Below are positions 39,975 through 44,410 of a DNA stretch of 64,000 bases, one piece after another. The stretch lies in NCBI GenBank assembly GCA_021773075.1, contig JAJFKT010000012.1, positions 248,001-312,000 on the forward strand, read 5' to 3'. Source of the stretch: Woeseiaceae bacterium. GTDB taxonomy: Bacteria; Pseudomonadota; Gammaproteobacteria; Steroidobacterales; Woeseiaceae. Position 1 is the stretch's first letter; each line of letters opens with the position of its first letter. Made by a program: the position numbers and the translations under genes. The notes under the pieces are model-generated. The model was given only the letters and a program-made list of their open reading frames with translations, ran no database searches and was not told where the DNA came from.

Positions 39975-42900
39975 TTACGCGTCCTGCAGGCTGATTTCGA
40001 TGGTCCAGCGTTCTTCCCCGAGTTCCTTTTCGTCTTTGTATCTCGAATCCGACTGACCAACTTGCCAGTTTGTTGCCAGCGTTTCGGCCATCAGGTAATC
40101 GCGATGAACGGCAAGCGCTTTTTCGACAGCGGACGTACCTGAAACGCCGAGAACGATACGATCTGATACCTCCAAACCGGCCTGCTTTCGTGCATCTTGC
40201 ACCGAACGGACGATCTCTCGTGCGAAACCCTCGTTGATCAACTCGTCGTCCAGCCTTGTGTCGAGCGCTGTCAGGAAGCCGGCATCTGTCTCGCAGGAAT
40301 AGCCCTCGGCCGAATGCGTTTCGATTAAGACATCATCGCCCTCTAGCGCAATGATCTGTCCTGCCACCTCGATTTCGAATGCCTCACCGCATGCCGCTGC
40401 ACTTGCGATTGCTCCGCCATCGGCGTCGAGCAAAGCCGCCTTGATCTGTGGCACCAGCTTTCCGTATAACTTGCCGAGCTTTGGCAGATTGGGCTTGATG
40501 TTGTAGCTGACGAGCCCCGCATCACGGGCAATAAATTCGATCGCCTTAATATTAAGCTCTTCAAGAATCTGATCCTGATGGCTGCCGAGGGCTTTTGCCG
40601 CCGCATCATTAGGCGCGCGCACCAGCAACCGGGAAATCGGTTGTCGCGTGCGGACACCAGACTTGGCGCGAGCGGCACGACCCAGACCAACTACTTTTTG
40701 CACAACGCCGACGTCGAACAACAGGTCGTCATTTCGCCAGGCAGGATCGACCTTGGGCCACTTTGTCATATGGATCGATTCGGGCGCGCCTGCATCGACG
40801 CTCCTGACCAGATTCTGGTAAACATTTTCTGCGAGGAATGGCACGAATGGGGCCATCAGCTTGTGGGCTGCATTCAGGCATTCGTACAGCGTCAGGTACG
40901 CCGCTTGCGTATCTTCTGCATCCGTCGATTTCCAGAAACGGCGCCGGTTACGTCGTACATACCAATTACTGAGTTGGTCCACAAACGACTCGAGCGCTTC
41001 GCCCGCGGACTTGGCGTCATAGTTATCCAATGACTCTGTAACGATTGTGATCGTGTCGTGCAATAGCGCCAATGCCCAGCGGTCAATTTCCGGACGATCC
41101 TGAGGCGCAATATCGCGACTCAGATCGACATCATCGAGCCTCGCGTACAAAACGAAGAAGCCATAGGTATTCCAGAAGGTATTGATGAACGAGCTGGCAA
41201 CGTCGGCGACAATATCCACGGAGACACGTTTAGGCACATCGGGTGACAGTCGTGCGAGGAAATACCAGCGCAGGGCATCTGCGCCAACGGTGTCGAAGAC
41301 GTCGTAAGGATTTATGATGTTGCCAACCGACTTTGACATCTTCTTGCCGTCTTTATCGACGATCAGATTCAGGCAAATGCAGTTCTTGTAGGCGACGCTG
41401 TCTGACACAAGCGTCGCGATTGCGTGCAATGTATAGAACCAGCCGCGAGTCTGGTCGATCGCTTCGCAGATGTAGTCAGCCGGAAAGCTTGCTTCGAATT
41501 TGTCTTCATTCTCAAATGGATAATGCCACTGTGCATAAGACATAGCGCCTGAGTCGAACCAGCAGTCGATGACTTCCGGCACACGCTGCCAGGTCTTGCC
41601 ATCTTTCTCGAATGTAATTTCATCCACCGCTGGTCGATGCAGATCGAGCTCGCTGAGCTCGCGGCCCGTTAGCTCTTCAAGTTCCGCAACAGATCCGACG
41701 CAATGAAAATCACCGTCCTCCGTTGCCCAAACCGGCAGCGGTGTTCCCCAGAAACGCTCGCGAGAGAGCGCCCAGTCGACATTGTTTTCAAGCCAGTTCC
41801 CGAAGCGACCATCCTTGATGTGTTCCGGCACCCAGTTAATCGTCTGATTCAACTCCGTCATTCGCTCACGGAATTTCGAAGTGCGGATATACCAGGCATT
41901 CTTCGCGTAATAGAGAATCGGATCCCCGGTGCGCCAACCGAACGGATAGCTGTGCTTATAGCGCTCGGAACGGAACATCATGCCGCGCTCTTTGAGAATA
42001 CGAATCAGTGGTTTGTCAGCATCCTTGAAGAACAGCCCTTTGACGGGCTCGACCTCTTCGATGAAATTGCCATCAAGGCCTACTCCGTGGATGACGGGTA
42101 AGTCGTTCGCTTGTCCGAGAGCGAGGTCGTCGACACCGTAAGCTGGCGCAGTGTGAACAATGCCGGTGCCGCTTTCCGTGCTAACGAAATCCGCCGCGAA
42201 AACCTGGAACGCATTCGGCGCGTCGACATCGATGTAGTCGAAAAGTTGTTCGTAACGGCAGCCCACAAGTTCTGAGCCCTTAACTGTCTTGACGAGCGAA
42301 TGCTCGATATCGCGAAACACCGATTCGCGCAATGCTTCCGCGACAATCAGGGTCTGGCCTTCAGACTCACAATAGCTGTAGTCGATGTCGTTGCCGACCG
42401 CCAGTGCCAGGTTTGAAGGCAGCGTCCATGGCGTCGTCGTCCAGACGAGGAAATAGGTCTCGTCTTCGCCCTGCATCTTGAAGCGCACAGTGATCGACGG
42501 GTCTTCAACGTCTTTGTAACCCAGTGCCAACTCATGTGACGAAAGCGTTGCACCGATACGTGGGTCATAAGGCACGACCTTGTAACCCTTGTAGATCAGG
42601 TCCTTGTCCCAGATCTTTTGCAGCAGGTTCCAGACGGACTCAATATAGGAGTTATTTAGCGTGTAATAAGCTTCGTCGAGATTGACCCAGAAGCCCATTC
42701 GTTCCGTCATTTTTTCCCAATCGGAGATATAGGTCATGACGGACTCGCGACACAGGCGCGTAAATTCTGCAATGCCCACAGTGGCTTCTATTTCGGCCTT
42801 GTCGTAGCTCTCGATCCTGCCCTGCTTCTTCAGAAGTTTTTCGACCTCATGCTCAACTGGCAAACCATGTGTATCCCAGCCCGCTTTTCGCGGCACGTGA

Positions 42901-43133
42901 TATCCCTGCATGGTTTTGTAACGTGGGAAAATATCTTTGAAACTGCGGGCGAGTACGTGGTGGATACCGGGCCTGCCATTTGCGGTTGGTGGGCCTTCAT
43001 TGAAACTGAACTGCGGACCACCCTCGGTTTGATCCAGTGTCTTTTGAAAAACATCATGCTCACGCCAAAACTCCAGCACCTCGGTTTCGAGGACCGGGCC
43101 GTTATAGCGTCCCTGAACTTCTTTAAATGACAC
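39975..43133 (-). CDS. ileS: Isoleucine--tRNA ligase, type-2-like (IleRS2), GTG start
   Basis: 1052 aa; [39 protein letters not shown], IleRS tRNA-binding C-terminus; HIGH motif is GIHH. Confidence 0.96.
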   Translation of the reverse strand: [1052 protein letters not shown]

Positions 43134-43149
43134 AAGCTACTCCAAATAC

Positions 43150-43400
43150 TAAAAAACCCCGGGCGCACAGTGTGCGCCCGGGGCGAAAATTCGCGGTACC
43201 ACCCGGCTTCATGACCCTGCGGTCATCTCATGGATCGTCGTGATCCGTCGCTCGTCTCGTGAGCCACTCGGCCGACCTTAAAGGAATATATCTTTCAGGT
43301 GGCAACTCCGGGGTGATATTCGGCAGATTCAGACCCGGAGCTCACACTGTCCTCCGGTCGCTTTGGCCTGATCAGGCTGCCTACTCGTCCCCATCAACGT
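43150..43400 (-). promoter_or_regulatory. T-box riboswitch (Ile, ATC specifier) upstream of ileS
   Basis: Reverse strand: GGGG-ACGAGTA-GGCAG...CTGCC-GAATATCA-CCCC Stem I (specifier ATC at 43315-43317); T-box sequence GAAGCCGGGTGGTACCGCG (43192-43210); antiterminator CCGGG[UGGUACC]GCGAAUUUUCGC-CCCGG; competing terminator at 43151-43183. Confidence 0.95.
43151..43183 (-). terminator. T-box regulated intrinsic terminator
   Basis: Reverse strand CCCCGGGCGCACA-C-TGTGCGCCCGGGG-TTTTTT: 13-bp inverted repeat followed by six T. Confidence 0.95.
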
Positions 43401-43473
43401 CTTGCCGGGGAAATTAGCGCCCATGCCACAAAAATACAAGTAATATCATCGCAATCGGCAACAGGAGAGCGAA

Positions 43474-44047: not shown

Positions 44048-44410
44048 CTATGCGTTTTCGGCTTCGTTGGCGCAGTCGATGCAAAGAGTAACGGTCGGAT
44101 CGAATTCGAGTCGATTGGGATCTATGTCCTCGTCACACTCCCCGCAACGTCCATAGTCACCATCGTCGATGCGTTTTAGCGCCGCGCTAATGCGCCTCAA
44201 TGTGGCCTGCCGACGATGCCCCGCTGCTTGCGCCATAGATTGGGCCTGCATTGCATCCATCCGCGATAAGCGACCCACTTTGGATTGATCCAGCTCGACG
44301 ACAGCGGATGACTCTGCGTTCGACGCAGCAATGCTCTCGATTTCCGCGCGTAATGTGAGGAGTTTTTCTCGCCACTCGGCACTCATGTGTAGCTGTACTC
44401 GGAATTGCAT
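44048..44410 (-). CDS. TraR/DksA-type C4 zinc finger protein
   Basis: 120 aa; 'GDYGRCGECDEDIDPNRLEFDPTVTLCIDCANEAE'. Confidence 0.9.
   Translation of the reverse strand: MQFRVQLHMSAEWREKLLTLRAEIESIAASNAESSAVVELDQSKVGRLSRMDAMQAQSMAQAAGHRRQATLRRISAALKRIDDGDYGRCGECDEDIDPNRLEFDPTVTLCIDCANEAENA

Follow-up and report, generated by a model that had tools for sequence, protein, structure and literature searches.

The window, a stretch of 64,000 nucleotides on a 389-kb contig of a 4.09-Mb Woeseiaceae assembly, carries on its minus strand, at 39975–43133, the gene ileS for a type-2 isoleucyl-tRNA synthetase (IleRS) of 1052 amino acids (TIGR00392, 942 bits). The gene starts with a GTG codon at 43133, 6 nt downstream of a Shine-Dalgarno sequence GGAG (43140–43143), and is preceded on the same strand by an RNA leader that extends from about 43406 to 43151, terminator included. 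T-boxes are tRNA-sensing RNA switches found chiefly in Gram-positive bacteria, and Woeseiaceae are common in marine sediment. The sequence-only reading of this DNA had proposed a complete transcriptional T-box ahead of ileS; every segment that it named lies where it was placed, and the check that it put forward, a search with the Rfam T-box model RF00230, matched the entire 219-position model at 43176–43406 (88.2 bits, E 5.1e-20). Because this score is slightly under the gathering cut-off of 93 bits, a default Rfam scan of the window at the gathering score reported no T-box, while a scan by E-value did. The predicted fold of the leader is more stable than those of dinucleotide shuffles (z -4.3). 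Weak small-RNA matches over the terminator (NsiR1, sX11 and others) were dismissed, since only a hairpin and a U-tail lie behind them.

Just 5' of the leader is a putative promoter, TTGTAT-N17-TAATTT (43411–43439, minus strand). A scan with the sigma-70 consensus gave no site there, and the block scores poorly against that consensus. By eye, most Woeseiaceae copies have a CTTGTnTTTT-N17-GCTARTTT block in this position, directly 5' of the leader, and it is likely to be a promoter. Further upstream of ileS, at 44048–44410 (minus strand), the window encodes a short protein resembling DksA/TraR zinc-finger proteins, under the family cut-offs; by eye, a similar reading frame is also found upstream of ileS in two other Woeseiaceae genomes (G236 and G214).

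The leader has the full set of T-box elements. Stem I (43305–43400) comprises a kink-turn region, the specifier loop, an AG bulge and an apical loop, with the segments GGGG (43389–43392), AGTA (43382–43385), GGCAG (43377–43381), CTGCC (43322–43326) and CCCC (43310–43313). The earlier description of this stem had these segments in the right places; its abbreviated form left out the distal and apical helices, which are also present. The specifier codon is AUC, for isoleucine (43315–43317), and the anticodon of the genome's tRNA-Ile is GAU. Then follow Stem II (43271–43303), with a GAA/UA, S-turn-like interior, and the Stem IIA/B pseudoknot (43250–43270; CG/CG plus GCUC/GAGC). The next region (43211–43246) holds a variable hairpin (43232–43246) and Stem III (43211–43226). 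At the 3' end, the antiterminator (43178–43206) bears the 7-nt bulge UGGUACC (43195–43201), the textbook form that had been claimed for it, and the intrinsic terminator (43151–43184) has 12 Watson-Crick pairs and a closing G.U pair followed by U6, which bears out the 13 base pairs and six T's of the original description.

Does the leader act on transcription? The strand 43178–43184 is common to antiterminator and terminator, so that the two structures are mutually exclusive, as the sequence-only reading had also said. Folded alone, the antiterminator sequence gives a helix with the exact 7-nt bulge (-10.8 kcal/mol), but the terminator hairpin is far stronger (-27 kcal/mol) and prevails when both sequences are present; without tRNA, folding thus favors the terminator. 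A switch that is off by default and is turned on by tRNA is what a T-box requires. The terminator is conserved in relatives, with two-sided changes, and its U-run is interrupted in many of them (CGTTGTT, for example), in which termination may therefore be leaky. The weak U-run of some relatives, together with a hairpin end that lies only a few bases from GGAG, could be taken to mean that control is mainly translational, by sequestration of the Shine-Dalgarno sequence instead of termination. In the window, however, an uninterrupted U6 follows the hairpin, which leaves GGAG uncovered, and mainly translational control is highly unlikely.

The structure was compared across 30 leaders (26 RF00230 finds in Woeseiaceae, the window included, and four from related loci) that were aligned by MAFFT without structure. 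Because a T-box model served to recruit the members and the window sequence was the template for the structure, the counts lean towards the structure: 42 of the 56 pairs have two-sided changes, such changes occur in 219 cells versus 69 in shuffles, and 90.9% of cells are paired, against at most 49% when partners are slid by one base. No variation occurs in the AUC specifier or in the UGGUACC bulge in any of the 30, and the AGUA/GAA core of the specifier loop is altered in only a few. The helices of Stem I have two-sided changes. Stem II is the weakest helix (76% of cells paired); six of its seven pairs have two-sided changes, and most sequences do not form the two pairs in the middle. In the pseudoknot, IIA is invariant, and IIB is 92% paired with two-sided changes at four of four pairs. 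The variable hairpin and Stem III (85% and 92% of cells paired, respectively) have such changes at every pair.

How widespread is the leader? The sequence-only reading had suggested a survey of relatives, and in an order-level sample of 247 genomes, RF00230 matches were found in front of ileS in 58 of the 65 Woeseiaceae (one, G214, only partial) and in one of the 182 genomes outside the family (G065, of family f6). Only 11 of the 59 matches reach the Rfam gathering cut-off. All 57 genomes with both a leader and ileS have the two on one strand, with a spacing of 38–148 nt in all but one. In a class-wide sample of 369 genomes searched with strict filters, matches were confined to the window's genus. 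The leader is also present in metagenome-assembled genomes (MAGs) labelled Arenicellales (L014), Gammaproteobacteria (L007) and Proteobacteria UBA7447 (L008). In the Arenicellales MAG, a gene that by eye resembles a glutathione S-transferase gene lies between the T-box and ileS (L014:2555-3501), which suggests a T-box operon of two genes. Downstream of ileS, SAH riboswitches (RF01057) occur at L008:8065-8145 and L009:5732-5814, in both cases between metK-like and ahcY-like genes (named by eye).

Three Woeseiaceae genomes have the start of ileS without a working leader. In G149, an internal deletion has removed the specifier region, and what remains of the leader (L157, G149:C16, just above 15615) is the 5' beginning of Stem I plus the antiterminator/terminator region. 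In G236, the leader is absent before ileS. In G214 (L136, G214:C23:20841-21017), a repeat, of which a similar copy lies upstream of the leader, has taken the place of the T-box 3' half and forms with the end of Stem I a long hairpin followed by T6. Placed ahead of ileS, this hairpin resembles a constitutive terminator. Since it has been lost or broken in these genomes, the leader is dispensable. Together with four loci or genomes in which no leader was found (L009, L010, G084 and G109), these cases could indicate a relic in decay, which came with the gene but has stopped switching, and constitutive expression of ileS. Yet about 57 Woeseiaceae keep a full-length leader, and an invariant specifier and bulge, coupled to covarying helices, imply selection. 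It is thus very improbable that the leader is a mere relic.

The host assignment made earlier also stands: the NCBI taxonomy places Woeseiaceae within Gammaproteobacteria. The assembly (G000) has an estimated contamination of 6.96%, which would allow the ileS contig to have come from a phylum in which ileS T-boxes are routine. This explanation has next to no probability, being already contradicted by the family-wide pattern: the contig is long, and the same gene and leader recur in the 58 family genomes, including one (G066) that is a single contig of 4,059,891 bases and 100% complete. A genome-wide RF00230 search found one T-box in the window's genome, and a search of that genome for a second ileS found none. 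Other IleRS-like matches, on other contigs and below cut-off, were set aside as probably valS, leuS, metG and cysS, in view of their different frame lengths and sub-cut-off scores. Two tRNA-Ile(GAU) genes, of which one may derive from contamination, are among the tRNA genes fetched from the genome. Because both end in ACCA, their discriminator A fits the UGGU of the bulge, in agreement with what had been expected from the leader.

Where did the leader and its gene come from? Among enzymes of solved structure, the window IleRS matches IleRS2 and Thermus IleRS better than type-1 enzymes, the type-2 status of the solved entries being in part general background. For some of these entries it follows a published assignment (PMC10485003). 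In an IleRS tree, in which a very long branch divides type 1 from type 2, the clade of T-box-linked enzymes joins those of Chloroflexota (support 99/98), with Ktedonobacter, Chloroflexaceae and Roseiflexaceae nearest (91/99). RF00230 leaders also lie in front of ileS at nine Chloroflexota loci (L015–L017, L020, L022, L024, L041, L053 and L071). Leader and ileS were very probably acquired together, since the clade's Chloroflexota neighbors in the tree have ileS T-boxes themselves, which supports the joint acquisition that had been proposed. The donor would be Chloroflexota or a nearby lineage; in AU tests, neither a monophyly of Chloroflexota that excludes the T-box ileS clade (p 0.25) nor a kinship with Actinomycetota (p 0.12) was rejected. 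The acquisition appears to be old, as the element is family-wide and the native type-1 gene is gone, and it would predate the divergence of the sampled Woeseiaceae.

The occurrence of T-box and type-2 ileS in other gammaproteobacterial genomes (L007, L008, L014 and G065) might alternatively reflect descent, with both being ancestral in the line that led to Woeseiaceae and lost elsewhere, and no transfer involved. This is very unlikely: few genomes in the order-level and class-wide samples have a close relative of the enzyme, and the four further members of the order that were checked encode type 1. Moreover, the remaining type-2 enzymes of Gammaproteobacteria (L140–L150) form a separate clade that groups with Rhodothermota/Balneolota enzymes; an AU test rejected joining the two gammaproteobacterial sets (p 2e-53), and no T-boxes were found before ileS of this second set. 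Type 1 has been named as the usual IleRS of proteobacteria (PMC4861432). In G065 and G084 the type-2 ileS lies directly behind ribF, the site of type-1 ileS in G001, and this position points to a replacement in place in that family. In the window's genome and G066, ribF is located away from ileS. The native type-1 gene would have been lost in Woeseiaceae.

The class I HIGH signature of the window IleRS is swapped, with RPGIHH, a GXHH form, in the N-terminal part, around GPPTANGRPGIHH. The motif probably arrived with the gene, because Chloroflexota enzymes bear the same one. In IleRS2, G/AXHH makes mupirocin resistance up to a thousandfold higher (PMC10485003), and resistance has been proposed as the driver of ileS2 transfer (PMC4861432). 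By analogy with the motif described in PMC10485003, the window IleRS is predicted to be mupirocin-hyper-resistant.

Compared with class I RF00230 leaders, such as those of Firmicutes ileS, the Woeseiaceae leaders share Stem I, the specifier loop, Stem II, IIA/B, Stem III, the antiterminator with its UGGN bulge, the competing terminator and an aminoacyl-tRNA synthetase target. They differ in their gammaproteobacterial host, in scores mostly below the gathering cut-off and, in most copies, in the extra variable hairpin between IIB and Stem III. Actinobacterial ileS T-boxes are generally understood to be translational and to have a short Stem I. Those of Mycobacterium and Nocardia, which are of this kind (PMC7583486), share with the window leader the specificity for isoleucine, Stem II and the IIA/B pseudoknot, whereas in the window leader Stem I is long and a terminator is present. 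The ileS T-boxes of Chloroflexota (the nine loci above, and Dehalococcoides in PMC2494555) belong to the same RNA family and have the same type-2 target and the nearest gene relatives, but in another phylum and with an IleRS about 50% identical to the Woeseiaceae enzyme. The T-boxes of Geobacter and Pelobacter (PMC2494555) are similar in having a host then classed as Proteobacteria and differ in their leuA target and deltaproteobacterial lineage. The published range of T-boxes covers Firmicutes, Actinobacteria, Chloroflexi, Deinococcus-Thermus and Geobacter/Pelobacter (PMC3766115, PMC2494555), as the sequence-only reading had listed it. A literature search that covered few subscription journals found no earlier T-box report for Woeseia or Gammaproteobacteria. 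The mechanism would be ordinary, and the host lineage new as far as the searched literature goes.

A standard transcriptional T-box mechanism is well supported by the sequences. The AUC specifier of the nascent leader would read the anticodon of tRNA-Ile(GAU). If the tRNA is uncharged, its 3' ACCA would pair with the UGGU of the bulge and stabilize the antiterminator, and RNA polymerase would continue into ileS; with charged tRNA, the stronger terminator would form and transcription would halt. It is very likely, all in all, that a class I Ile T-box controls the genome's only ileS, and that leader and type-2 gene were gained jointly and the native type 1 lost. The horizontal transfer, with Chloroflexota or a neighboring lineage as its source, would be older than the split of the sampled Woeseiaceae, and type-1 ileS would have been lost. 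More specifically, a cassette of T-box and hyper-resistant IleRS2 probably displaced the native ileS in the ancestor of Woeseiaceae, and probably still functions with the polymerase and tRNA-Ile of a Gram-negative host.

A conserved T-box in an abundant gammaproteobacterial family widens the accepted range of these switches (PMC3766115), and the few matches that pass the Rfam cut-off mean that it conceals real T-boxes. The family would offer a traceable case of an RNA switch that crosses phyla with its gene and displaces a native essential gene, a displacement possibly selected by natural mupirocin-like antibiotics. If true, the cassette replacement would amount to a tRNA-sensing switch transplanted between phyla in nature and present in several gammaproteobacterial lineages.
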